Of a stretch of 38,652 nucleotides of DNA, positions 1,351 through 36,750 are shown in pieces; the first letter of the stretch is position 1; each line of letters opens with the position of its first letter. The stretch is taken from IMG/VR virus record IMGVR_UViG_3300033388_007451, positions 1-38,652 of that record; one strand, given 5' to 3'. The DNA comes from a virus. The notes below the pieces were generated by a model. That model saw nothing but the letters and a program-made list of their open reading frames with translations, searched no databases and was not told the origin of the DNA. The position numbers were made by a program, and so were the translations under genes.

Positions 1351-4314
1351 ATGGCTTTAGAAGTTTTAGAAAAAATCCATAAGGGATTATATGGTTTAGC
1401 TACTCCAGTTAGAGAAACAATTCGGAAAATAACTCCCAAATGGTTTCCTTTTCCTTTTGCTCAAAAAATAGAGAGCTCAATGGAAGCTTTTGAGGAAAAA
1501 GTAGCTCCAATTACAAGGAAATTTGAGAGAGCTGGTTTAAAATTGATGGACACTTTTATTGAAAGTTATAAAGTAGCCGAAACAAAAAACAGAAGAATAT
1601 GGACTAATATATTAGACCCTACTTGGAAAATGGAAAAAGAAGGATATAAATTTGCTCCTGGAGAGAAAGAAAAATTTAGAAAACAAGCGGAAACTCTAGC
1701 TCAACATATTCCAACCAATCCTTTTGTGCCAGCGGGAGGACTAAAGGGGATTGACCCTCGAGTAGCGAGAATCCTTCAAAAAGCAGTTCAAAAAGGAGTT
1801 TCTGGAAAAACTCTTAAACAGATTTTAAAAATAAAACCCTCCCAGTTAAAACCTTTAATTCAAACCGCCAAAGAGCAAGCAAAAAGAATAACCAAAATAA
1901 AACCTCCTACCTTAAATCTTGATAGGATTCAAGCTCCTGAAGAGATTAAAACTAGAATTATTGATTGGACTAACAAACACGCCAAATACTTGGCTGACCA
2001 ATATCCTCATTATACCTTCCGAGAGATTCAATCTGAGTTAGAAAAAAGTGGTTTTGATATTTTAAAAGGAATGAGAACTTGGAAAAAAGTGTTTGGTGGT
2101 GACACTAAAAAAACTTTAGTTGCCATAAAAGGAATTAGAGATTCAGCTTTAAAAATTGAACAACAAATTGCCAATATTCAAAAAGCTCTTAGAACAACTA
2201 ACAATCCTGATAAAATATTGTCTCTTACTACCCGATTAAAAGATTTGCAGTTAGCTCACGATGGATTATTTGAGGCAGTTTTGGGTTCGGGGAGAATTTC
2301 TGGTCAATTACTGGCTTTTCGCAGAATGACCTCTAAAGCTCTAAAGGGAACTGTTTTAGAGAAAAGATTAGTCTTAGAAAGGTTATTAGGGAAACAATTT
2401 GAACCAGGGAGTGCTCCTTATCAGAAATTTATAACTTTATTGAAAAATATTGACCCTGCTGACCCCCAGGCAGTGATGCAATTTTTAAGACAAGCTCAAG
2501 CACCAAATATTACAGATTTTCCAGCTTCAATATGGTATAATGCTATTCTTTCGGGACCTAAAACTCATTTAGTGAACTTATTAGGAAATACCCTATTTGG
2601 AACAGTTGAGAGTTTTGTGGTAAGACCAATAGCTTTTCTGTTAGATACTCCTCTTTCTAAATTGAGAGGAGTGGCTCCCAGACACACTAGTAAAAGTATG
2701 GTTGGGTATTATGGAGGAATGTTAAGAGGGTTAAAAATCGGTATTGATAGATTTTGGCAGACAATGAAAACTGGTTTTGACCCTGAGGAGATATTATATC
2801 CTTCTAAATGGCAACAATTAAGACAAGTTCCTTGGGAGACTAAATTTGTTAGAATGCCCGGTAAAATTTCAGAAGTGCCGGGTTGGTTACAACCTTGGCT
2901 TAGGGGTACAGGGAAAGTAATTAATATACCTACTCGGCTTTTAAAAGCTGCTGATACTTTCTTTAAAGGAATTTTTGAAGAAGCAAGAAAATTTGAGTTG
3001 ATAGTGCCTAAAGTGTGGAGTAAAAACAAAACTCTACGCCAACTTATCTTAGAAGCTGATGAATTAGCAAGGTCTAATCCGTTAGAATGGTCAGATGAAG
3101 CAATACAGTTTGGTAGATGGATGACTTTTCAAGATGCTCCAGGGAAAATAACAAGTTGGGTAATTCGAGGAAGAGATACTGTACCTGGTCTAAGATATAT
3201 TATTCCTTTTGTAAATATCGCCTCAAATCTATTAAAACGGGGATTTATTGATTACTCACCTGTAGGATTAACAAAAGGGATTCAGGAGATTGTTATTAAA
3301 AATCCCAAAGCAGCCGAGACAACTGCAAGAGGGTTGTTTGGTACTCTTGTAATGTTAGGTGGAGTTTTAAAGTATCTTGATGGAAGTATCACTTTGGGTG
3401 CTCCTCCCAACAGAGCTGAGAGAGATGCTTTCTACCGACAAGGAAAACAGCCTTGGTCAGTAAAAATAGGAGATAGGTGGGTAGGAATTAGAAGATTGGA
3501 ACCTTTTATTTACCCCTTTCTTAGCGGAGCTTTAATTGCCGATGCTGTTCATAAAGGAAAGTTAAATGATAAGAACACTGAGGAGATTATAGCTGATGCC
3601 GCTCAGAAGATAGGACAGTTTGTTACTGATGCTTCCTACTTATATGGATTGAGTCGTATTTATCGAGCCCTGAATCCTTCTTGGGAAAGCGAGGGAAGTG
3701 AGTTTTTAGCTTGGTTGCAACAATTAGGAACAGGTTTTCTTCCTTATTCTAATGCTTTACGGTCTATTGCCACTGCTATCAATCCTGAAGTTCCTGCACG
3801 AGATTTATCTACCCAGGAAGTTTTTGAGTCAATTATTCCTTTTTTAAGAAAGAAAATAAAAAAACGGCTCACTGTTTGGGGTGAACCTGCTAAATATGTA
3901 ACTGGAGCACCTGGTACCTTTTTACCAGTGGCTACTTCAGAAATTACTACTGATGATACAGAAAACGAATTAATGAGATTGGATTATAGTCCTGGTTTTC
4001 CCTCAAAACCTTCTGGAATGGACGATAATTCTTATCGAGCTTATCTTGTTTTGTCAGGGAGATTGTCAAAGTTGGCAGTTAGTTATTTGATTCACCAACC
4101 AGCTTATTATCAGGCTGATGATAATACTAAGCGAAAAATGATAGCAAATACTATTTCTGCTGTCAGAAAACAAGTTAGACAACAATATTTTGGTTATTTT
4201 AAGTGGTATGACTATTTTTACAATCTTTTCAGAAATCAAGGATTTAATCGAGAAAACTCGGAAGCTATGGCTGATAAAGCTTTTGATATGTTATTGCAGG
4301 GAGTCACTCCCTAA
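1351..4314 (+). CDS. Large internal virion protein, putative DNA-ejection protein
   Basis: The product has 987 residues and is the largest in the genome. The mid-section carries NAILSGPKTHLVNLLGN (about residues 398-414), a motif that recurs in very large phage virion proteins thought to be ejected with the DNA. The N-terminal third is lysine-rich and helical. Hydrophobic stretches follow (around TARGLFGTLVMLGGVL and PFLSGALIADAV), as expected for a protein that enters or crosses a membrane. It starts two bases after the upstream coiled-coil gene and ends the virion operon. No transglycosylase or protease motif is evident to me. The last 24 bases overlap a leftward small gene. The function is inferred from size, motif and position. 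Confidence 0.7.
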   Translation: MALEVLEKIHKGLYGLATPVRETIRKITPKWFPFPFAQKIESSMEAFEEKVAPITRKFERAGLKLMDTFIESYKVAETKNRRIWTNILDPTWKMEKEGYKFAPGEKEKFRKQAETLAQHIPTNPFVPAGGLKGIDPRVARILQKAVQKGVSGKTLKQILKIKPSQLKPLIQTAKEQAKRITKIKPPTLNLDRIQAPEEIKTRIIDWTNKHAKYLADQYPHYTFREIQSELEKSGFDILKGMRTWKKVFGGDTKKTLVAIKGIRDSALKIEQQIANIQKALRTTNNPDKILSLTTRLKDLQLAHDGLFEAVLGSGRISGQLLAFRRMTSKALKGTVLEKRLVLERLLGKQFEPGSAPYQKFITLLKNIDPADPQAVMQFLRQAQAPNITDFPASIWYNAILSGPKTHLVNLLGNTLFGTVESFVVRPIAFLLDTPLSKLRGVAPRHTSKSMVGYYGGMLRGLKIGIDRFWQTMKTGFDPEEILYPSKWQQLRQVPWETKFVRMPGKISEVPGWLQPWLRGTGKVINIPTRLLKAADTFFKGIFEEARKFELIVPKVWSKNKTLRQLILEADELARSNPLEWSDEAIQFGRWMTFQDAPGKITSWVIRGRDTVPGLRYIIPFVNIASNLLKRGFIDYSPVGLTKGIQEIVIKNPKAAETTARGLFGTLVMLGGVLKYLDGSITLGAPPNRAERDAFYRQGKQPWSVKIGDRWVGIRRLEPFIYPFLSGALIADAVHKGKLNDKNTEEIIADAAQKIGQFVTDASYLYGLSRIYRALNPSWESEGSEFLAWLQQLGTGFLPYSNALRSIATAINPEVPARDLSTQEVFESIIPFLRKKIKKRLTVWGEPAKYVTGAPGTFLPVATSEITTDDTENELMRLDYSPGFPSKPSGMDDNSYRAYLVLSGRLSKLAVSYLIHQPAYYQADDNTKRKMIANTISAVRKQVRQQYFGYFKWYDYFYNLFRNQGFNRENSEAMADKAFDMLLQGVTP

Positions 4315-25688: not shown

Positions 25689-26543
25689 ATGACGAAATCC
25701 CAGACATTTACCGTTTTCAATCCTGAGATTTGGTCTCCCCGAGTTACTGAATACTTTAAAGAGAAGCTGGTAGCTGCTAAATTCTTCAGTGATTACTCAA
25801 GCGAGTTGGCTGGAGGTGGAGATGTTGTTCACATTCCTCAATACACCCAGAGGTTCAGCGTTAACGACATTAACACAACCAGTGGTGATGTTACAGCAAC
25901 CAATGTAAGCGACACTCAAACCAGTTTGACTGTTAACAAGTGGAAAGGTACTTCTTTCTACATTACTGACTTTCAAGCTCGACAGATTGGAAAGCAGTAT
26001 AAAGTAATTAACACTCACGCCAGAAATGCTGGTCACGACTTGGCAAAAACATTTGACACTGCTTTGTTCACTTACACTTCCGCTTCCAATGTTACTGACA
26101 GTATCGGAGATTCAGCCACTGATATTCTGGCAACTACTTTGGAAAGAGGTATCTCCATCTTAGAGTCCAACAGTATTCCTGTTAACGAGTGTGCTTTCTT
26201 CTTCCACCCATACGCTTGGTATAGAGAGGTTCAAAAGAATTCTGATTTGAGGCAAGCAACAATTTATGGTGAGTCCCGACTTCCTAACTTAACCAAGTTA
26301 GCAAGTATTTACGGTATTCCTGCTTATGTGACTCCCCAAGTTCCTGCTGGAACTGCTGGCACTGAAGGTGGACACCGAAATGGACTTTACCACCCAGAAT
26401 TGATTGCTTTTGCTATGCAATTACCTCTCAGAATTTCTGAGAAAGAGGGTGAACATTTGAGAAGGAAAGTGATTGTTGATTTAGCTTACGGTATTACCAA
26501 TCTCAGGGCAGACGCTGGAATTAGGATTATCTCTAACAACTAG
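25689..26543 (+). CDS. Major capsid protein
   Basis: The product has 284 residues. The start (FNPEIWSPRVTEYFKEKLVA), IPQYTQRFSVNDI, an INTTSGDVTATNVSDTQTSL stretch and the central FFFHPYAWYREVQ segment fit HK97-fold capsid proteins of the P22/N4-gp56-like group. The C-terminus ends NLRADAGIRIISNN, a usual P-domain ending. Hundreds of copies form the shell. It follows the scaffold by five bases and is followed by an unusual set of inverted repeats. Confidence 0.85.
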   Translation: MTKSQTFTVFNPEIWSPRVTEYFKEKLVAAKFFSDYSSELAGGGDVVHIPQYTQRFSVNDINTTSGDVTATNVSDTQTSLTVNKWKGTSFYITDFQARQIGKQYKVINTHARNAGHDLAKTFDTALFTYTSASNVTDSIGDSATDILATTLERGISILESNSIPVNECAFFFHPYAWYREVQKNSDLRQATIYGESRLPNLTKLASIYGIPAYVTPQVPAGTAGTEGGHRNGLYHPELIAFAMQLPLRISEKEGEHLRRKVIVDLAYGITNLRADAGIRIISNN

Positions 26544-26611: not shown

Positions 26612-26914
26612 ATGAAAGAGATTCAAAAAGAAATAAAAACTTCTAAAGGATATTGTCATTACAGGATTACTGACGAAAATGTTGAGATTACTGACATTTT
26701 TGTAGAGCCAAAATTCAGAGGGCAAGGAGAAGGAAGAAAGATGGTTGAAAAAGTAATCAAAAAAGCCGAAGGAAAAGCTTGTGTTTATCTCTTTACTAGA
26801 AAAAGTAATGAGGGAGCACAAAAATTCTATGAGGCAATAGGGTTCAAGAAGGTTTGCGAAATTGAAGGATTTTACAGGTCAGAGTCAGGGATTATGTATA
26901 TCAAAAGACTATGA
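26612..26914 (+). CDS. GNAT acetyltransferase
   Basis: The product has 100 residues, short but complete. It shows the acetyl-CoA site VEPKFRGQGEGRKMVEKVIK (Q/R-x-x-G-x-G/A) and the ending GAQKFYEAIGFKKVCEIEGF. It transfers an acetyl group, perhaps to an amino sugar made by the aminotransferase in the same cassette, although protein or antibiotic substrates cannot be excluded. The ATG directly follows the inverted-repeat element. Confidence 0.85.
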   Translation: MKEIQKEIKTSKGYCHYRITDENVEITDIFVEPKFRGQGEGRKMVEKVIKKAEGKACVYLFTRKSNEGAQKFYEAIGFKKVCEIEGFYRSESGIMYIKRL

Positions 26915-27843
26915 AAATAATATATTTGGGTCAGTTTAATAATCCATTTTCTGACACAACCGAAAAGCACATTAAAAAAGCATTTGAGATGTTGGAACAT
27001 CAAGTAATTCCGATTGATGAAACCTATTTTCACCAAGAGAGAAATAGGATTTTAGAGGAAATCTATTATGAGAACGCTGATTTATTCTTTTTTCACAAAG
27101 GAGGTTGGAGGTACAAAATGACTCCCGAACAATTGGTAGAGTTTCTGACTTATGTGACAATTCCCAAGGTCTTTTGGTGGTTTGATAAAATTTCTGACAA
27201 AACTCCTGAAGCTTTACCTGATGGCAGATATGTTTTAAGAGAGCATTGGATGGATTTGATTCTCTCTTATGTTGATTATGGCTTTGTTACTGATGGAACC
27301 TTTGTTAGAAGGCACAAATACAAGAATTTATATGTTCTAAGGCAAGGAGTTGGCGATGAGTTCGTCAATTATAAAGGTCAATTTCGTCCAGAGTTTGCCA
27401 GAGATATTGTATTTTTAGGCAGGGTTTATGGAGGGAGAGGAGAGTGGATTGCTGACTTAAAAAAGGAGTTTGGCGATAGGTTTGAGGTTTTCAACAATGT
27501 TTTTGGGAGAAATCTTAAAGATTGTCTGAAATCTTGCAAGATTACCCTCTCTCCTTTGTATCCAGCCAATGAGTTTTATTGGTCTTCCAGATTTTATCAG
27601 ATGGTAGGAAACGGCGGCTTCTTAATTCACCCAAGATTAGAAGGATTAAAAGAGGAAGGTTGGATTGATGGCAAGCATTATGTTGGTTATAGAACTTATC
27701 CTGAAATGTATGAAAAAATTAACTATTATTTAGAACACGAGAAAGAACGAGAAAAAATCAGGAAACAGGGTTATGAATTCTGTATCAAGAATTTTAAGTA
27801 TTCAGACCGAGTTAAAGAGTTATTGGAGAAAATAAATCTATGA
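26911..27843 (+). CDS. Glycosyltransferase, GT-B fold, CgeB-like
   Basis: The product has 310 residues. MKIIYLGQFNNPFSDTTEKH opens the first Rossmann half. IVFLGRVYGGRGEWIADLKK starts the second, and TLSPLYPANEFYWSSRFYQM with GNGGFLIHPRLEGLKEEG is the donor-binding, receptor-like segment of CgeB/GT1_2 transferases. Overlaps both neighbours by four bases. It adds a sugar to an unknown acceptor. Confidence 0.85.
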   Translation: MKIIYLGQFNNPFSDTTEKHIKKAFEMLEHQVIPIDETYFHQERNRILEEIYYENADLFFFHKGGWRYKMTPEQLVEFLTYVTIPKVFWWFDKISDKTPEALPDGRYVLREHWMDLILSYVDYGFVTDGTFVRRHKYKNLYVLRQGVGDEFVNYKGQFRPEFARDIVFLGRVYGGRGEWIADLKKEFGDRFEVFNNVFGRNLKDCLKSCKITLSPLYPANEFYWSSRFYQMVGNGGFLIHPRLEGLKEEGWIDGKHYVGYRTYPEMYEKINYYLEHEKEREKIRKQGYEFCIKNFKYSDRVKELLEKINL

Positions 27844-28442
27844 TGATGATTATAACTGGTTGTGGACATTCGGGAACATTGTTTGTGGCAACTTTGTTTC
27901 ATATTCCTCACGAGCCCCCACACAGAGATTTATATATTCCCGATTATCCCGCTTATCTAAAAGCTTGGGAAGATAAAGATTTTGCCAGAGAGTGGGTGAA
28001 AGGAAACCTGATAGGTATTGAAAGAGAAAGCAACTCTTTCCTTGTTCCATTTGTTGAAGCGATTTTAGAGGAATTTTCCAATTGTAATGTCTTTCATTTG
28101 GTTAGAGACCCCAAAAAAGTTATTCGTTCCCTTTTGTCTAACGGGTTATACATTGACCGAGCTGGCTATCACAACATTAAATTGTTTGATAAAAGCCCAA
28201 ATGGAGAGAAATGGGAAAACCTAACTCCTTTTCAAAAAACTTGCTGGTATTGGAGAATAATTAACGAAAAATTGAGAAAACTGGGTTGTCCCCTGATTAA
28301 ATTGGAAGAATTGAGAGGGAAACCCCTTCACCAGAAACTTCATCGTATTCCTTCTCATCAGGAGTGGTTAAAAGAACAAAAAGATTATTTTAACAAAGTC
28401 GTTTATCCAGAAGCTAAATTTTATGGCTACCAGAAAATATAG
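27840..28442 (+). CDS. Sulfotransferase-like protein
   Basis: The product has 200 residues. IITGCGHSGTLFVATLF is the 5'-PAPS loop (P-loop variant G-x-S-G-T), and VFHLVRDPKKVIRSLL is the 3'-phosphate motif (R-D-P-x-x-x-x-x-S). Together they mark cytosolic sulfotransferases, which move sulfate from PAPS to a hydroxyl or amine. An APS kinase that would supply PAPS lies 330 bases on, which makes true sulfation plausible. It overlaps the next gene by 20 bases. Confidence 0.8.
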   Translation: MMMIITGCGHSGTLFVATLFHIPHEPPHRDLYIPDYPAYLKAWEDKDFAREWVKGNLIGIERESNSFLVPFVEAILEEFSNCNVFHLVRDPKKVIRSLLSNGLYIDRAGYHNIKLFDKSPNGEKWENLTPFQKTCWYWRIINEKLRKLGCPLIKLEELRGKPLHQKLHRIPSHQEWLKEQKDYFNKVVYPEAKFYGYQKI

Positions 28443-28773
28443 TTTGTTTATTGGCAGATGGCAACCTTTTCACGAGGGACATAAAACCTTAATTGAGAAA
28501 GTGTTGAAAGAAGGAAAATTTGTTTGTGTTGCTATTCGAGATACTGAAATTTCCAAAGATAATCCTTTTTCAGTGGAAGAAAGAAAAAAGATGATAAAAA
28601 AAGCCCTGAAAAAATGGGGAGAGAGGGTAAAAATTATCACCATTCCTGATATAACCGAGGTCTGTTATGGAAGAAAAGTAGGTTGGGGGATAAGAGAAAT
28701 TAGGTTAGATAAGGAAACAGAAAAAATTTCAGCAACCAAAATTCGTGAGATGTTTACAAGTAAAAAACTATGA
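28423..28773 (+). CDS. Adenylyl/cytidylyltransferase-like nucleotidyltransferase
   Basis: The product has 116 residues. SLFIGRWQPFHEGHKTLIEK has the HxGH nucleotidyltransferase signature, and ISATKIREM is the second ATP-binding motif. It is smaller than NMN adenylyltransferase but of that kind. ATP sulfurylase belongs to the same superfamily, so it could make APS for the adjacent kinase; that is inference. Overlaps the kinase by four bases. Confidence 0.8.
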   Translation: MATRKYSLFIGRWQPFHEGHKTLIEKVLKEGKFVCVAIRDTEISKDNPFSVEERKKMIKKALKKWGERVKIITIPDITEVCYGRKVGWGIREIRLDKETEKISATKIREMFTSKKL

Positions 28774-29102
28774 TTTTGTGGATAGTTGGTCAATCTAAAT
28801 CAGGAAAATCTACCTTGGCTCGAAAAATCAGTCAGGGAACTTGGATAGTTTTAGATGGAGATGCGATGAGAAGAAGTATATCAGCAGATTTAGGATTTTC
28901 TAAAGAAGATAGATGGGAGAACAATTTGCGAATAGCTAGGTTATCCAAAGAATTAGACGCTCAAGGATTTGATGTGGTAGTAGCTACAATTTGTCCTTAT
29001 AAAAAACTCCGCCAAGAAGTTAAACGAATTACAGGTTGTAAATTTGTTTATCTCGATGGCGGATTAATAAGAGAAGATTACCCTTATGAAGAACCAAATT
29101 AA
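28770..29102 (+). CDS. cysC: Adenylylsulfate (APS) kinase-like protein
   Basis: The product has 110 residues, shorter than usual CysC (about 170-200). WIVGQSKSGKSTLARKI is Walker A; VLDGDAMRRSISADLGFSKE with DRWENNLRIARLSKELD is the CysC signature (LDGDxxR...DLGFSxxDRxEN), followed by VVVATICPYKKLRQE. The usual lid and C-terminal segment is abbreviated to YLDGGLIREDYPYEEPN. It phosphorylates APS to PAPS, the sulfate donor for the sulfotransferase upstream. Confidence 0.85.
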   Translation: MILWIVGQSKSGKSTLARKISQGTWIVLDGDAMRRSISADLGFSKEDRWENNLRIARLSKELDAQGFDVVVATICPYKKLRQEVKRITGCKFVYLDGGLIREDYPYEEPN

Positions 29103-30105
29103 AATAGGTTTAGTAGCCAGAGCTGACAATTCAGGTCTGGGTACTCTCTCGAGGAGTTTTTATAAAAATTTGCTCATAGACAAAGTTTTAGTTGTTTACA
29201 ATAACGCTTATCCATTTGAACCAGAAATTTATCAGAACCCAATAGTTTGTCAGCACGGAATGGCTCCCTCTTTAGAGGAAATAAAAGAATTTTTGAAAGA
29301 TTTAGATTTAGTGATTACTTTTGAAACTCCTTACAACTGGAATTTGTTTTCTGAAGCCAGAAAAAGAGGAGTGAAAACAGTTTTAATTCCCAATTATGAG
29401 TGGTTACCCCAAACCTTGCCAGTAGTTCCTGATTTATTTCTTTGTCCTTCGAAATTAGATTATGAGGAAGTTAAAAACAACACAGCGACAGTTTCAGAAG
29501 TTAAGTATTTGCCAATGCCGATTGATGATGAGTTAATCCCTTACAAAGTGAGAGAAAAAGCAGAGGTATTTCTCTTTAACAACGGACACGGCGGACATAT
29601 GGGTAGAAATTCAGCTAGAGAATTATTTGAGGCGATTTCCCTTGTAAAGGAAGATGTAAAATTCAAGATTCACTCTCAGGTTTATTTTGATTCAGTAATA
29701 AATGATTCAAGGGTAGAGATTATTTATGGTGAAATTCCTTATGGGGAGTTATTTCAAGAAGGTGATGTTTTCTTGTATCCTCACAAGTTTGACGGTTTAT
29801 CCTTACCGATTCAAGAAGTATTGTTAGCGGGAATGCCAGTAATTTCAACTGATATTTATCCTCACAACGAATACTTACCAAAAGATTGGCTATTTAAACC
29901 AGAAGCAATGACTAAGATTTATGTTAAAAGGCAGATTGATATGGCAATTATAAATCCTGTTAAACTGGCTGAAAAAATAACTGAGTGGTGTCATCGAGAC
30001 ATTAAAAAAGAATCAGAGAAAGCAAGAAAGATTGGTGAGCAGTTTTTATGGAAAAAACTCAAACCAAAATACTTACAAGTTTTCCAATCCTTATGCCAAA
30101 AATAA
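29086..30105 (+). CDS. Glycosyltransferase, GT4-like
   Basis: The product has 339 residues. The second domain has the GT4 signature FDGLSLPIQEVLLAGMPVIS (E-x7-E type) and a typical ending. A N-terminal segment ARADNSGLGTLSRSF contacts the acceptor. It likely adds the second sugar of the phage-encoded glycan. Overlaps the kinase by 17 bases. Confidence 0.85.
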   Translation: MKNQIKIGLVARADNSGLGTLSRSFYKNLLIDKVLVVYNNAYPFEPEIYQNPIVCQHGMAPSLEEIKEFLKDLDLVITFETPYNWNLFSEARKRGVKTVLIPNYEWLPQTLPVVPDLFLCPSKLDYEEVKNNTATVSEVKYLPMPIDDELIPYKVREKAEVFLFNNGHGGHMGRNSARELFEAISLVKEDVKFKIHSQVYFDSVINDSRVEIIYGEIPYGELFQEGDVFLYPHKFDGLSLPIQEVLLAGMPVISTDIYPHNEYLPKDWLFKPEAMTKIYVKRQIDMAIINPVKLAEKITEWCHRDIKKESEKARKIGEQFLWKKLKPKYLQVFQSLCQK

Positions 30106-31040
30106 AAAACATAGTAGTTATTGGTGGAGCAGGATTTATAGGTTCGCATATTGTAGATAAATTAGTGAGTCAAGGACACAATGTTCTGGTTTTAGACAAT
30201 TTCAGTTCGGGTTCTTTAAAAAATATAAACAAAAAAGCAGAGTGGCTGGAGTTTGATATTAGAAGCAGTCCTGAAAGTTTGGCACAGATTTTAAAGAATG
30301 CGTGGATTGACGAAGTCTACCATTTAGCAGCAGAACCTTATATCCCAGAGTGTTATGAGAGACCAAAAGAATTCTTTGAAGTAAATGCGGTGGGAACAAT
30401 GAATGTTTTGCTAGCTTGTAAAATGGCAGGAGTAAAAAGAGTTCTCTATTGGTCATCAAGTGAGGTTTATGGAACTCAGGAAGGATTGATTTCCGAACAA
30501 ACCCCAACAAATCCTCAATCCACTTATGCGGTCTCAAAATTGGCGGCAGATAGATTATGTTTTACCCTTTACAAAGAGCAGAAAATTCCAGTAATTATTT
30601 TGAGGCAGTTTAACTCTTATGGCGAGAGAGAAACCCACGAATATGTTATCCCTGAAATTATTTCTCAGTTAGCAAAGTCTAACACCGTTAGATTGGGCAA
30701 CATAAAAGCTAAAAGAGATTTCATTTATGTAGGAGATGCGGCTGAAATAGCGGTTGAGTTAATGGAAAAAGGTAAGGCGGGAGAGGTATATAATTTAGGT
30801 TCTGGCAGTTGTTATTCAATAGAGGAAATTGCTTACAAAATAGGGGAAATTATGGGAAAAGAAATAAAGATAGAAATTGACAAAAAGAAATTGAGACCTT
30901 TTGATGTGGAAAAATTGCAGGCGGACAATTCAAAAATTTACAAAGTTGTTTCTAAAAAGCCGACTACTTCCTTTGAGGAAGGACTTAAAAAAACAATTGA
31001 TTGGTTCTATGAAAACGGGCAGAAGTGGGGATTTGAATAA
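30093..31040 (+). CDS. NAD-dependent sugar epimerase/dehydratase
   Basis: The product has 315 residues from ATG 30093; a 5' extension to 30048 overlaps the upstream gene and lies before the Rossmann start, so it is rejected. IVVIGGAGFIGSHIVDKL binds NAD. YWSSSEVYGTQEG and STYAVSKLAADR supply the S-Y-K triad. LRQFNSYGE and DFIYVGDAAEIAV are substrate motifs. An extended SDR such as UDP-glucose 4-epimerase or a related 4,6-dehydratase. Confidence 0.9.
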   Translation: MPKIKNIVVIGGAGFIGSHIVDKLVSQGHNVLVLDNFSSGSLKNINKKAEWLEFDIRSSPESLAQILKNAWIDEVYHLAAEPYIPECYERPKEFFEVNAVGTMNVLLACKMAGVKRVLYWSSSEVYGTQEGLISEQTPTNPQSTYAVSKLAADRLCFTLYKEQKIPVIILRQFNSYGERETHEYVIPEIISQLAKSNTVRLGNIKAKRDFIYVGDAAEIAVELMEKGKAGEVYNLGSGSCYSIEEIAYKIGEIMGKEIKIEIDKKKLRPFDVEKLQADNSKIYKVVSKKPTTSFEEGLKKTIDWFYENGQKWGFE

Positions 31041-31464
31041 AATTGTAGCAGTTTCAGGATACTTTGCACCACTTCATAGGGGACATTTAAATTATTTTAA
31101 AGAAGCGAAAAAGTTAGGAGATTTGTTGGTAGTTATTGTTAATAATGATTATCAATTAGCGAGATTTAAAAATAGAAAATATCCGATTGAAGACAGAATT
31201 GAAGTTATAAAAGAATTGAGGTGTGTAGATAGGGTCATGGAAAGTATTGATAAAGATAGTAGTGTTTGTAGAACCTTGGAAAGATTAAAACCCGACATCT
31301 TTGCTAATGGTGGCGATAGAACAGAGAAAAATATTCCTGAGGTTGAAGTCTGTGAGAAATTGGGGATAAAAATGGTTTTTGGGGTTGGAGGAGAAAAAAT
31401 TCAATCTTCAACTAATCTTTTGAAAAATTATGAAAATTCCAGTTTGTCGTCCTTCAATAACTAA
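31009..31464 (+). CDS. Cytidylyltransferase-like sugar nucleotidyltransferase
   Basis: The product has 151 residues from ATG 31009, overlapping the epimerase; a TTG at 31033 is possible. IVAVSGYFAPLHRGHLNYFK has the HxGH signature, YPIEDRIEVIKELRCVD is typical of RfaE2/TagD-like cytidylyltransferases, and FANGGDRTEKNIPEVEVCEK is the usual substrate segment. It makes a CDP- or ADP-activated sugar or polyol. Overlaps the aminotransferase by 35 bases. Confidence 0.85.
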   Translation: MKTGRSGDLNKIVAVSGYFAPLHRGHLNYFKEAKKLGDLLVVIVNNDYQLARFKNRKYPIEDRIEVIKELRCVDRVMESIDKDSSVCRTLERLKPDIFANGGDRTEKNIPEVEVCEKLGIKMVFGVGGEKIQSSTNLLKNYENSSLSSFNN

Positions 31465-32524
31465 AACTGAAAAAAGGTGGGTTAAAAAAGCACTGAAAGA
31501 AAACAGGATTTCTTCTACCGGAGGATTGGTAGAGTTGTTTGAGGAGAGATTTGCCAAAAAAGTAAATCGTAAGTATTGCGTGGCGGTTAATTCTGGGGGT
31601 TCAGCATTATTTCTAACCTTATGGGCTTTGGGAATAAGAAAAGGAGATGAAGTGATAGTTCCCGATTTTACAATGGTAGCTACCCCTAACGCTGTCAGCC
31701 AGTGCGGAGCGAAACCAGTTTTTGTGGACGCAGAATACGATACTGGGAATATAGAAGTTTCAAAAATTGAGGAAAAAATTACCAAAAAGACGAAAGCAAT
31801 TATCCCAGTTCATATTTACGGACATCCCTGCGATTTGGATAAAATTTTCCGTATTGCTAGCAAGTATAAAATACAGGTTATTGAAGATGCTGCCGAAGCC
31901 CACGGAGCACTTTACAAAGGAAAGCCAATAGGTTCTTTTGGGAAAGCAAGTTGTTTCTCTTTTTATGCCAACAAAATTATAACTTGCGGGGAGGGGGGAG
32001 CGATTTGCACTGATGATAAATCTTTGGCTGAGGAATTGAGAGAGTTGCGAGCTTACTATTTCTCACCCGTTAGACATTTTGACCATAAAAAAATTGCTTG
32101 GAACTTGAGAATGTCATCTTTAGAAGCAGCAGTGGGATTAGGACAACTGGAAAGATTTGAGGAGCTTGTTTCCAAAAGACAAATGAATGTTGGTTATTAC
32201 TCCCGAAACTTAAAAGAGTTGGAAGAAAAAGGATTTTTAGAGAGACCAATAAAGAAAGATTACGCTGAACCTGTTTATTGGATGTACTGGATAAAAGTCA
32301 AAAAAAGAGACCAGTTAATGAAGTTTTTGGAAAAAAAAGGAATTGAGACCAGAACAGGATTTTTCCCAATGCACTGGCAAAAACCTTATAAAAAACCTTA
32401 CAAAAAATATCCAGTGGCAAATAAATTAGGAAAGAATTCTCTTTATTTGCCTTCAGGTTCAGATTTAACAAATAAAGAAAAAGATTATGTTATTGAAAAA
32501 ATTAAAGAGTTCTACCAAGTGTAA
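31430..32524 (+). CDS. DegT/DnrJ/EryC1 sugar aminotransferase (perosamine-synthase-like)
   Basis: The product has 364 residues, full length. It starts MKIPVCRPSITKTEKRWVKK; SSTGGLVELFEERFAKKVNR and VAVNSGGSALFLTLWALGIR bind PLP phosphate. IEDAAEAHGALYKGKPIGSF has the Asp and His around PLP. FSFYANKIITCGEGGAICTD holds the catalytic lysine. HIYGHPCDLD is close to GDP-perosamine synthases. It converts a 4-keto nucleotide sugar to a 4-amino sugar, which fits the GNAT and epimerase. Confidence 0.9.
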   Translation: MKIPVCRPSITKTEKRWVKKALKENRISSTGGLVELFEERFAKKVNRKYCVAVNSGGSALFLTLWALGIRKGDEVIVPDFTMVATPNAVSQCGAKPVFVDAEYDTGNIEVSKIEEKITKKTKAIIPVHIYGHPCDLDKIFRIASKYKIQVIEDAAEAHGALYKGKPIGSFGKASCFSFYANKIITCGEGGAICTDDKSLAEELRELRAYYFSPVRHFDHKKIAWNLRMSSLEAAVGLGQLERFEELVSKRQMNVGYYSRNLKELEEKGFLERPIKKDYAEPVYWMYWIKVKKRDQLMKFLEKKGIETRTGFFPMHWQKPYKKPYKKYPVANKLGKNSLYLPSGSDLTNKEKDYVIEKIKEFYQV

Positions 32525-33188
32525 TTCGGTAATTATTGGAGCAGGTGAGGTTGGTCGAGCATTGTTTTTCTCTTTAATAACCCATTATCAGGTCTTCTGT
32601 TTTGATAAAAAATATCAACCTTGTAAAGCTACCTATTTACATATTTGCTTTCCTTATTCCAAAGATTTTGTCAGGGAAGTTAAAAAATACCAGCGAATTT
32701 ACAAACCCAAATATACTATTGTGCACTCAACCGTGCCAGTGGGAACTTCCAGAAAGTGTGGAGCAATCCACTCACCAGTAAGAGGAATTCACCCATTCTT
32801 ACAAGAGGGATTAAAAACCTTTATTAAGTATTTAGGGGGAGAGAAAGCAAGCGAGGTGGCTGACTATTTCCGAAGAGCAGGATTTAGAGTTTATCTCTTT
32901 GATAAACCAGAAACCACCGAGTTAATGAAAATTCTTTCAACAACCTTTTATGGAACTTGTATAGAATTTACCAAAGAAGTTAAGAGATTGTGCCAGAAAT
33001 ACAAAGTTCCTTTTGAAGCTTGGACGATTTGGACAAAAGATTACAACGAAGGATACAAAAAACTTGGTTTTCCCGAATTCCAGAGACCAAATCTTGTGCC
33101 AATAATGAAAAAAACTGGCGGACATTGTGTCAGACCGAATTATCAACTTCTCAAGTCGAAATTTACTAACTTTCTTAAAAAATTATGA
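32487..33188 (+). CDS. Compact UDP/GDP-sugar dehydrogenase-like protein
   Basis: The product has 233 residues. SVIIGAGEVGRALFFSLI is the NAD fold. IVHSTVPVGTSRK and ETTELMKILSTTFYGTCIEF match nucleotide-sugar dehydrogenases (STVPxGT, ETAELxK). KKTGGHCVRPNYQLL near the C-terminus holds the catalytic Cys of the GGHC motif. The C-terminal nucleotide-binding domain of the usual 400-450-residue enzyme is absent and the N-terminal domain is short. It may oxidise a sugar to an acid. Overlaps both neighbours. Confidence 0.75.
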   Translation: MLLKKLKSSTKCNSVIIGAGEVGRALFFSLITHYQVFCFDKKYQPCKATYLHICFPYSKDFVREVKKYQRIYKPKYTIVHSTVPVGTSRKCGAIHSPVRGIHPFLQEGLKTFIKYLGGEKASEVADYFRRAGFRVYLFDKPETTELMKILSTTFYGTCIEFTKEVKRLCQKYKVPFEAWTIWTKDYNEGYKKLGFPEFQRPNLVPIMKKTGGHCVRPNYQLLKSKFTNFLKKL

Positions 33189-33933: not shown

Positions 33934-34617
33934 ATGGATAAAGCAAAGACTATTTACTTAAGTATACTTAATCAGGGCTGGATAAGGGCTGAGTTGATGT
34001 TTTTGGTAACCAAATGGGTAAGAGAAAGTCCTTATAATCTTTATCTCTCTTTACCTGCAAAAAAACCAATTCAGCACAACCGAAATGAAATTGTAAAGAA
34101 ATTTTTAGAAACCGATTTTGATTATTTGGTAATGCTTGACTGTGATATTATTCCCCCTTTGAATTTTCTAAGCTTGGTTGACTTTGATAAAGATATTATT
34201 GGCGGTTTGTGTTTTGCTTGTAAAAACAGGCAAGGGAGAGACATAATTTTACCTTTGGCTTTGGAGAAAAAACCCTCAGAAAGAAAAGATGTTGACTGGA
34301 AATACAAACCATTGAAACTTAATGGAAATGAAGGTCTGATAGAAGTTGATGCGGTTGGGACGGGAGCAATTATTATTGCTCGGAGAGTATTGGAGCACCC
34401 GAAAATGAAACCTGCTTTCATTGATTATTACGATGAAAATGGTTTGAGAATTGAAGGACTTGACCTTTCATTTTGCCGGAGGGCAAAAGAGGCAGGGTTT
34501 AAGGTTTATACCCACACAGATTTTCCTTGTTCACATTGGACACCTATGGATTTAATGCAAATTTATTCTGATGAAATCAAAAAGGGAGAGATAAAGGTCG
34601 CTAATAACAACCAATAA
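33934..34617 (+). CDS. Glycosyltransferase, GT-A type
   Basis: The product has 227 residues. FDYLVMLDCDIIPPLNFLSL holds the DxD metal-binding motif, and IEVDAVGTGAIIIARRVLEH followed by GLDLSFCRRAKEAGFKVYTH is the common second half (with the ED-like acid) of GT2-type phage transferases. It stands alone between connector and tail genes, away from the main cassette. Such genes often glycosylate virion or host surface components. Confidence 0.8.
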   Translation: MDKAKTIYLSILNQGWIRAELMFLVTKWVRESPYNLYLSLPAKKPIQHNRNEIVKKFLETDFDYLVMLDCDIIPPLNFLSLVDFDKDIIGGLCFACKNRQGRDIILPLALEKKPSERKDVDWKYKPLKLNGNEGLIEVDAVGTGAIIIARRVLEHPKMKPAFIDYYDENGLRIEGLDLSFCRRAKEAGFKVYTHTDFPCSHWTPMDLMQIYSDEIKKGEIKVANNNQ

Positions 34618-35196: not shown

Positions 35197-36750
35197 ATGG
35201 CTTGGCTTTCTGGATACAATACAAGACGAAAAATAACAATAGACCACACCAAGATAGATTCTGACCTAACCGATTTTCCAGTCCTTGTAAAACTTACAAG
35301 TTCTAATTTTGATTTCTCGAAAGCAAACTCAGATGGATATGATATTAGATTTACAGAAGATGATGGCACCACCCTATTAAAATACGAAAGAGAAAGGCAC
35401 GATTCTGCTAATCAGATAGCGGAATACTGGGTAAAAATTCCCTCGGTTTCAAGTTCAGCAGATACGGAGTTTTATATTTACTACCGAACGACAGACACCG
35501 CTGATGGGGCTGACCCGACTAATGTTTGGGATAGCAATTATGAGTTGGTTACCCATATGAAAGATGACCCAGATACTTCTCATGTGGCTGATAGCACTGC
35601 TAATAATAATGATGGGACAAAAAAAGCAGCTAATGAACCGATAGAAGCAGATGGGAAGATAGCAAAAGCACAGGATTTCGATGGTAGTAATGATTATATT
35701 AGTTGTGGAACTGATATAGGATTGACCCGATGGACTCTTGAAGCTTGGATAAAAAAGACAGGGGCCTTTAATTGGGATGCAATCATTACCAAAAGACCAA
35801 CTACAAATTCGGATATGAATTATTATTTCCAGTTAGGGGATGAATCTGCAACTTTTAAAAATGAAATTGGTGGTGGATTTTATGATGGTGATTGGAGGAA
35901 TGTTTGGACAGATACAGACCCAATAGCATTAGATACTTACTATTATGTAGTTCTTACTTTTGATGGAACATATCTAAAGATTTATGTAGATGGAGTTTTA
36001 AAGAAAACTTCTTCCGACCTTTCTGCATATACTCCGAATTCAGCAAGCACTACACCCGTAAGAATCGGAGCCGAAAAAGACGGTCCATCTGATTTTTTTA
36101 ACGGTATCATTGATGAAGCCAGAATATCAGATATAGCTCGTTCTGCTTCTTGGTTAAAAGCTACTTACAATTCTGGAAATGATACTTTGGTAAGTTATGG
36201 GAGTGAGGAACACGGTTATTTAGAAACCCTAACAGAAACTCTTGGTTTAACTGATACTCTTCAAAAAACAACAATTTTTTCTAAAGTATTAACAGAAAAT
36301 CTCAGTTTGTCTGACACCATTCAAAAAGTAACGAGATTTTCGAAAACATTAACAGAGGATTTAACACTGACAGATGTTGTAACAGTACTTAAGAAATTTA
36401 TTGTTAATTTGATAGAGACGCTGAATTTGTCTGACGCATTAGACAAGCTCACAAATTTTAAAAAAACAATTTCTGAGACCCTTAATTTGTCTGATACGGT
36501 TTCAATAATTAAAAAGTTCTTTGTTAGTTTATCAGAAACCTTACACTTATCAGACGCAGTTTCTCGGGTTACCAAGTTCAAAAAAACAATTATTGAAACC
36601 TTACATTTATCAGATATTGTCAGTATTGCTGGTGGCTGGTTCAAACAAATAAAACATACAACTTCTTGGAGCAAACAAACTAAACACTCCACAGCTTGGA
36701 CAAAACTAACCAAACACTCAACTTCTTGGACTAATCAAACTAAACACTAA
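35197..36750 (+). CDS. Receptor-binding tail protein: DUF2341, LamG and repeats
   Basis: The product has 517 residues. Residues 1-95 are a DUF2341 domain (GYNTRRKITIDHTKIDSDLT). Residues about 150-330 are a concanavalin/LamG lectin domain (AQDFDGSNDYISCGTDIGLT, then DGVLKKTSSDLS and FFNGIIDEARISD). Residues 345-484 are seven 20-residue repeats of the type LSETLxLSDTVSxxxKFxKT. The last part has three 10-residue repeats (KHSTSWTNQT). Such carbohydrate-binding domains on a repeat stalk suit a host-recognition fibre. Confidence 0.8.
   Translation: MAWLSGYNTRRKITIDHTKIDSDLTDFPVLVKLTSSNFDFSKANSDGYDIRFTEDDGTTLLKYERERHDSANQIAEYWVKIPSVSSSADTEFYIYYRTTDTADGADPTNVWDSNYELVTHMKDDPDTSHVADSTANNNDGTKKAANEPIEADGKIAKAQDFDGSNDYISCGTDIGLTRWTLEAWIKKTGAFNWDAIITKRPTTNSDMNYYFQLGDESATFKNEIGGGFYDGDWRNVWTDTDPIALDTYYYVVLTFDGTYLKIYVDGVLKKTSSDLSAYTPNSASTTPVRIGAEKDGPSDFFNGIIDEARISDIARSASWLKATYNSGNDTLVSYGSEEHGYLETLTETLGLTDTLQKTTIFSKVLTENLSLSDTIQKVTRFSKTLTEDLTLTDVVTVLKKFIVNLIETLNLSDALDKLTNFKKTISETLNLSDTVSIIKKFFVSLSETLHLSDAVSRVTKFKKTIIETLHLSDIVSIAGGWFKQIKHTTSWSKQTKHSTAWTKLTKHSTSWTNQTKH
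36229..36648 (+). repeat. Seven 60-bp coding repeats in the adhesin
   Basis: In-frame repeats of 20 codons, consensus (L/I)(T/S)ETL-x-LSD-x-V-x6-F-x-K-T. They diverge at the DNA level but keep period and hydrophobic pattern, so they are maintained as protein structure. Three 10-codon repeats of KHSTSWTKxT type follow to the stop. Confidence 0.8.

Follow-up and report, generated by a model that had tools for sequence, protein, structure and literature searches.

A compact nucleotidyltransferase paired with a LID-less APS kinase as a putative miniature PAPS synthetase of phages and Patescibacteria

Can a phage supply its own activated sulfate, and for what purpose would it do so? The question is raised by ten open reading frames (ORFs) at positions 26612–33188 of IMG/VR virus record IMGVR_UViG_3300033388_007451, the whole 38,652 bases of which are referred to below as the window. 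All ten lie on the + strand with overlapping or abutting ends, and are flanked by the major head protein gene upstream and by further head and tail structural genes downstream. The first-pass annotation had described a ten-gene glycan synthesis and sulfation cassette inside the structural operon, and this arrangement was confirmed and found to be kept in a sister phage. We propose that two consecutive genes of the cassette, encoding a compact nucleotidyltransferase (NT; 28423–28773, +, 116 aa) and a shortened adenosine 5′-phosphosulfate (APS) kinase (AK; 28770–29102, +, 110 aa), specify a miniature synthetase of 3′-phosphoadenosine 5′-phosphosulfate (PAPS) feeding a sulfotransferase that would decorate a phage-directed glycan. 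From the genomic evidence, we estimate the probability of this reading at roughly 70%.

AK passes the APS kinase profile PF01583 with 78.9 bits (cut-off 21.1; profile positions 4–102 of 152) and matches 7yq0 with an E-value of 9.9e-14. Alignment with full-length kinases revealed that Walker A, DGD, R34, F43, R48, the CP motif (present as ‘ICP’) and FSxxDR are retained; in APS kinases, these arginines and the phenylalanine are APS-binding positions. The LID helix (RDxKGLY...FTGID) is deleted. A LID motif was found in 14 of 103 kinases scanned, including the NT-paired kinases of loci L020, L027, L032, L035, L042, L064, L105, and L109.

NT matches the Pfam family CTP_transf_like (50 bits). Over 73 sequences, residues G11, R12, Q14, H17, H20, G83, R84, G87, S103, and R108 are invariant; the family signature, taken over 73–76 sequences, has invariant GR.Q, H..H and GR..G elements plus ISATKIR. 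The AlphaFold2 model (mean predicted local distance difference test score, pLDDT, of 92) is a HIGH nucleotidyltransferase with the fold of pantetheine-phosphate adenylyltransferase (PPAT) and NMN adenylyltransferase (NMNAT); it aligns with 5h16_A (PPAT) at Z 11.7 and 3.3 Å over 113 residues and with 4yp7_C (NMNAT) at Z 10.9 and 30% identity. With HxGH, ISxTxxR and the alpha/beta nucleotidyltransferase fold all present, NT belongs to the HIGH superfamily, in which it represents a previously undescribed family. When NT was compared by hhalign with ten Patescibacteria NMNATs, 106 columns were aligned (E 1.1e-29) and the ATP-side residues were found to be kept, while about 25 NMNAT columns between the fourth strand and ISATxIR had no counterpart. 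This segment carries the NMN site of NMNATs; NT has lost it and has a conserved [YI]GR.VG[YW] loop in its place. Thus, NT shares its fold and its HxGH and ISATxIR ATP site with NMNAT (NadM/archaeal) and PPAT (CoaD), but differs from them in its acceptor-binding region and in having an APS kinase as its partner.

The first-pass annotation had assigned NT to the ATP sulfurylase superfamily. As a claim of sequence homology to the canonical ATP sulfurylase Sat, this could not be upheld, the protein being NMNAT-like instead: the Pfam scan gave no match to PF01747, and hhalign to eight Patescibacteria Sat proteins covered 22 columns around HxxH with a probability of 40. In place of the Sat motifs QxRNPxHxxH and GRDHAG, NT has GR[WYF]QP.H.GH and [YI]GR.VG[YW], while QTRNP and/or GRDH[AT]G are present in the eight Sat proteins. 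Sat chains were not among the 50 listed rows of the NT fold comparison, an absence that does not exclude them. NT is related to Sat at the superfamily level alone, and its acceptor site is new.

We used an NT alignment to search for relatives and retrieved 218 related viral stretches, 80 of which were analysed further. The search also gave 18 genome contigs, the majority from Patescibacteria metagenome-assembled genomes; related contigs and records are not independent samples, and contig ends hide genes. An APS-kinase domain, detected with local hidden Markov models, was beside or fused to NT, in either order, in 75 of the 80 viral loci and 16 of the 18 genome contigs. Full-length NT (at least 92 bits) was present in 9 of 380 Patescibacteria genomes, and in all nine AK adjoined it or was fused to it. 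One such pair (L144) lies between groEL and pyruvate-kinase-like genes and is therefore chromosomal. The same two parts make up phrog_10255, a 230-residue phage ‘kinase’ whose substrate had not been assigned: its N-terminal half matches AK and its C-terminal half NT, whereas the window version is split into two genes. Among cultured phages, the kinase-NT fusion is carried by DLP_6 of Stenotrophomonas and by Bhz60 and AhaSv of the Casjensviridae. The suggestion made earlier that such a system would be unusual is appropriate for the enzyme; the NT-AK module itself, judging by the 218 related stretches, is found again in some 200 viral contigs.

In a small number of cases (L045 2056–2685, L040, L051, L073), the neighbourhood of NT contains no APS kinase; the L045 protein is a fusion of NT with a MazG-like stretch (identified by eye) and is encoded beside a sulfotransferase. 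A sulfotransferase is also the neighbour of an 87-aa remnant of NT at L143 2739–3002, and 2 kb away the same Patescibacteria contig holds an intact NT-AK pair. Genes for HNH-type endonucleases (by eye) separate NT and AK in two phages (L014 5556–6398 and L005 1123–1668), the former running in frame into the kinase. Three candidates (H21, H22, and H23) were not counted as phage evidence, as they contain full-length cysC, with H21 and H23 looking bacterial; jumbo phage LR756500 encodes an ordinary 180-aa APS kinase and was likewise set aside.

Exchanges of partners point to the reaction that NT may carry out. NT is paired with LID-containing APS kinases at L027, L032, L035, L042, L064, and L105; at L027 the partner, fused to NT, is a complete APS kinase (155.7 bits). 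At L141 (genome G392), CysD is immediately followed by a fusion of the LID-less kinase with CysN, next to which lies a sulfotransferase (CysD and CysN were named by eye); this is a real ATP sulfurylase context. In place of either half of the NT-AK pair, an established component of PAPS synthesis can thus be found. Canonical ATP sulfurylase (PF01747) is absent from 17 of the 18 cellular genomes with NT, and matches to PF01507 (CysD/PAPS-reductase family) are absent or weak in most NT-bearing Patescibacteria. By elimination, NT would occupy the ATP sulfurylase slot and perform the sulfate-activating step. Among the 380 Patescibacteria genomes, eight have Sat and nine have NT with no overlap, which is weak evidence alone since the overlap expected is about 0.2 genomes.

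The sulfotransferase-like protein of the cassette is encoded just upstream of NT (27840–28442, +). Its match to Sulfotransfer_3 is below the threshold (E 0.007, 17.1 bits, cut-off 27), but the assignment gains support from the sister phage (L014) orthologue, 58–60% identical, which passes the same cut-off (29 versus 27 bits). A P-loop-like GCGHSGT (GxGHSGT) and a VRDP motif, the latter part of a VRDPxxVxxS 3′-phosphate motif, are visible in the window protein. Its AlphaFold2 model reached a pLDDT of 45 and was not used; it was built from two sequences, as two scans had turned up a single close relative.

Sulfotransferases are also enriched around the module in other genomes. Pfam sulfotransferase families were found in 30 of 50 NT records, and 18 of the 50 have one within 3 kb of the module, compared to 6.9 ± 2.1 expected when positions were redrawn within each record; in none of 20,000 trials did the count exceed 15. 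The 130 ORFs (51 non-redundant loci) lying no further than about 1 kb from the module fell most often into Sulfotransfer_3 (8) and Sulfotransfer_1 (7), with glycosyltransferases and DUF2061 coming next. The families listed for 130 ORFs more than 2.5 kb from the module included no sulfotransferase. These counts are low estimates, because Pfam misses certain neighbours that show P-loop and RDP-like motifs (e.g. at L015). In G334 (L146), PF13469 missed an ORF that is divergent to NT and looks sulfotransferase-like by eye, and another sulfotransferase-like ORF is located two genes upstream of the kinase-NT fusion in Bhz60; a tblastn search of cultured phages with the sulfotransferase gave no match. 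In Rhizobium sp. BK376, a single 555-aa ORF matches Sulfotransfer_2 (31.3 bits), APS_kinase (55.1 bits), and CTP_transf_like (22.3 bits), each over its Pfam cut-off. Sulfotransfer_3 is present in 5 of 9 NT-bearing Patescibacteria versus 23 of 371 others (Fisher test, P-value = 1.6e-4), and canonical Sat is likewise linked to it in this group (4 of 8, P-value 1.4e-3). Taken together, NT-AK linkage, sulfotransferase neighbours, the triple fusion and the partner swap give good comparative-genomic support to the earlier proposal that kinase, nucleotidyltransferase and sulfotransferase jointly serve PAPS use.

Two further families were seen next to module kinases. The small membrane domain DUF2061 adjoins the APS kinase of NT modules, or is fused to it, at L032 7035–7775, L035 5338–6054, and L004 7783–8061; it is possibly a membrane anchor or a sulfate-related transporter, and papers on DUF2061 were uninformative. 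An NADAR-like gene adjoins an APS kinase at L007 5148–5591 and L010 4071–4547 (in Bhz60, where it is annotated and lies beside the NT fusion, and in a jumbo phage, where it was recognized by eye near an ordinary cysC).

Several observations weigh against a PAPS synthetase. No NT residue could be tied to sulfate binding, with the Sat motifs QxRNP and GRDHAG absent and the Sat profile match short, and AK has lost the LID, which normally folds over the nucleotides. Sequence evidence for the window sulfotransferase is weak, and its structure was poorly predicted (pLDDT 45). By Pfam, 20 of the 50 NT records are without a sulfotransferase, and some NT-AK pairs stand alone: L002 has neither sugar genes nor a recognized sulfotransferase, so the acceptor may vary between relatives. 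One genome (L106/G061) holds both NT-AK and canonical Sat, and the CysDN search was not exhaustive across all NT genomes. Finally, APS-kinase-like enzymes with another substrate exist, an example being Cj1415 of Campylobacter, which we take to resemble APS kinases.

The last point leads to the alternative that survives best, although we regard it as improbable: NT may activate another small anion or phospho-compound, AK may phosphorylate the 3′-OH of the conjugate, and the sulfotransferase-fold enzyme may transfer that group to a sugar. A precedent is the O-methyl-phosphoramidate of Campylobacter, where Cj1415 with Cj1416–1418 makes CDP-phosphoramidate 3′-phosphate for the capsule (PMC11800397). 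The lack of Sat sulfate-binding motifs in NT and the unusual, LID-less type of kinase agree with such a scheme, and in both systems a kinase would make a 3′-phosphorylated nucleotide donor, which in Campylobacter serves capsule decoration. However, the Campylobacter system has no sulfotransferase or CysN context, and its nucleotidyltransferase presumably differs from NT. The same type of kinase as AK is found with CysDN, a real ATP sulfurylase (L141), NT is also paired with full-length canonical APS kinases, and the neighbours of the module match sulfotransferase families of Pfam. No amidoligase or amidohydrolase partner was noticed, and homologues of Cj1416–Cj1418 were not recognized among the cassette ORFs, at which no profile search for these proteins was aimed.

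It is considerably less probable that AK is an ordinary viral cysC, an auxiliary metabolic gene boosting assimilatory sulfate reduction of the host. Surveys place viral cysC under this heading without validation (PMC12713726; PMC9789665), but no reductase was seen in the cassette, where AK lies among glycan genes beside a sulfotransferase, and most module-bearing Patescibacteria have no PF01507 matches. We give slightly less credence still to a module serving NAD+ salvage or NAD-depletion counter-defence, with NT as a shortened NMNAT and AK as a nucleoside-type kinase. The closest folds and profiles of NT are indeed NMNAT/NadM and PPAT, NadM is carried by phages, and the annotated NADAR gene of Bhz60 adjoins the fusion; yet NT has the conserved GR..G loop in place of the NMN-binding segment, its partner is an APS kinase rather than a ribosylnicotinamide kinase, and neither the sulfotransferase fusion nor the CysN context fits. 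Least probable is a chance grouping of unrelated host-derived glycan genes with no joint product: taken singly, the genes belong to families often carried as phage cargo, but a sister phage retains all ten genes as a block at a divergence like that of its head genes, so that chance is a poor explanation.

This sister phage, IMGVR_UViG_3300033149_003758, has portal and major head proteins 55% and 60% identical to those of the window. All ten cassette genes follow its major head protein gene, with identities of 49, 63, 58, 75, 61, 61, 67, 60, 66, and 46% in window order; the gene order is the same except that the HldE-type gene comes after the DegT gene rather than before it. The sister block additionally contains a HAD phosphatase, two small ORFs (one cupin-like, the other resembling a membrane protein) and the HNH endonuclease reading into AK. 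The cassette thus diverges at the pace of the head genes and has long been retained.

Returning to a PAPS synthetase, the proposed pathway would begin with NT adenylylating sulfate with ATP to yield APS, a step suggested by its partners and residues, and AK, judging from its family and residues, would phosphorylate the APS 3′-OH to yield PAPS. The sulfotransferase at 27840–28442 could then move the sulfate from PAPS to an acceptor. The acceptor sugar may be built by the 4,6-dehydratase, C4 aminotransferase, acetyltransferase, dehydrogenase-like oxidase and sugar-phosphate nucleotidyltransferase of the cassette, and three glycosyltransferases would attach it, as the likely sulfate acceptor, on the virion or host surface. 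The gene neighbourhood makes a sulfated amino or acidic sugar on the capsid or host surface a plausible product.

Profile searches mostly agreed with the gene families assigned in the first-pass annotation. Downstream of the major head protein gene (25689–26543, +; phrog_267, E 5.9e-23), the cassette starts with a 100-aa RimI-like GNAT acetyltransferase (26612–26914, +; PF00583, 57.8 bits), possibly a sugar N-acetyltransferase, and a Glyco_trans_1_2 glycosyltransferase (26911–27843, +; PF13524, 65.5 bits), a 44% identical relative of which directly follows the major head protein gene in L114. After the sulfotransferase, NT and AK comes a group 1 glycosyltransferase (29086–30105, +; phrog_2170, E 1.9e-17; GT1 26.6 bits, slightly below the cut-off). 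The next protein belongs to the short-chain dehydrogenase/reductase family of sugar-nucleotide 4,6-dehydratases/epimerases (30093–31040, +; ORF open from 30048, likely start 30093) and matches PF16363/GDP_Man_Dehyd with 214 bits and LegB TIGR04180 with 220 bits, the latter below the cut-off; its epimerase label had to be revised, since it is more similar to 4,6-dehydratases of the LegB/GMD type with their SSSEVYG motif. It is followed by an HldE-C/TagD-type sugar-phosphate nucleotidyltransferase (31012–31464, +; ORF open from 30901, likely start 31012; CTP_transf_like 56 bits; TIGR02199 85 bits, below the cut-off; phrog_7878, E 1.3e-22) and a LegC/PseC-like DegT/DnrJ/EryC1 sugar aminotransferase (31430–32524, +; PF01041, 375 bits; TIGR04181 309 bits, below the cut-off). 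The last gene encodes a short UDP-glucose/GDP-mannose dehydrogenase-like protein (32487–33188, +) with NAD and central domains and a GGHC motif (weak PF00984; TIGR03026, E 2.6e-5), which has 53–55% identical relatives in three viral contigs. A third glycosyltransferase lies beyond the end of the cassette, downstream of the next head gene (33934–34617, +; phrog_12406, E 5e-9; 55% identical to its sister phage counterpart).

Further downstream, positions 35197–36750 encode a LamG-like (by eye) structural protein, possibly an adhesin, with C-terminal repeats (LTETLNLSDTV..., WTKLTKHSTSW...) that are more numerous in the sister protein. Virion-type genes are located at both contig ends (2–4314 and 33185–38568, with an internal virion protein match at 1351–4314), suggesting a circularly permuted and perhaps nearly whole genome.

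The NT-AK pair can be compared with known routes to PAPS. Like bifunctional PAPS synthetases (Sat/APS kinase fusions; PAPSS), it combines a HIGH-superfamily adenylyltransferase and an APS kinase, often in one polypeptide and beside sulfotransferases. Unlike them, it has an NT of about 110 aa that is NMNAT-like by profile and lacks QxRNP, GRDHAG and the PUA-like N-terminal domain, a kinase without the LID, and a total length of about 225 aa versus about 550–600. A link to CysDN/CysC is provided by a single Patescibacteria genome (L141), in which the LID-less kinase forms a fusion with CysN next to CysD, yet NT is neither a PP-loop protein like CysD nor a GTPase like CysN. On balance we favour, somewhat less firmly than the pathway itself, a separate origin for NT: after Sat and CysDN it would be the third type of ATP sulfurylase, one that evolved independently when an NMN/pantetheine-phosphate adenylyltransferase scaffold lost its old acceptor site. 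With the LID-less APS kinase it would make up a PAPS synthetase far smaller than known ones, common to phages and Patescibacteria and used for sulfation rather than assimilation. The open-access literature yielded generic lists of viral auxiliary metabolic genes and no paper on the NT-AK pair or on phage PAPS synthesis, which is not proof of novelty.

If the proposal is correct, NT-AK would be an unrecognized route to the universal sulfate donor that is small enough for phage genomes, and it would explain how Patescibacteria without Sat could feed their sulfotransferases. The role of phage sulfotransferases has been called unclear (PMC10580990); these enzymes would gain a donor supply. Our data also suggest that some of the viral genes labelled cysC, which surveys assign to assimilatory sulfate reduction, belong to sulfation modules instead.

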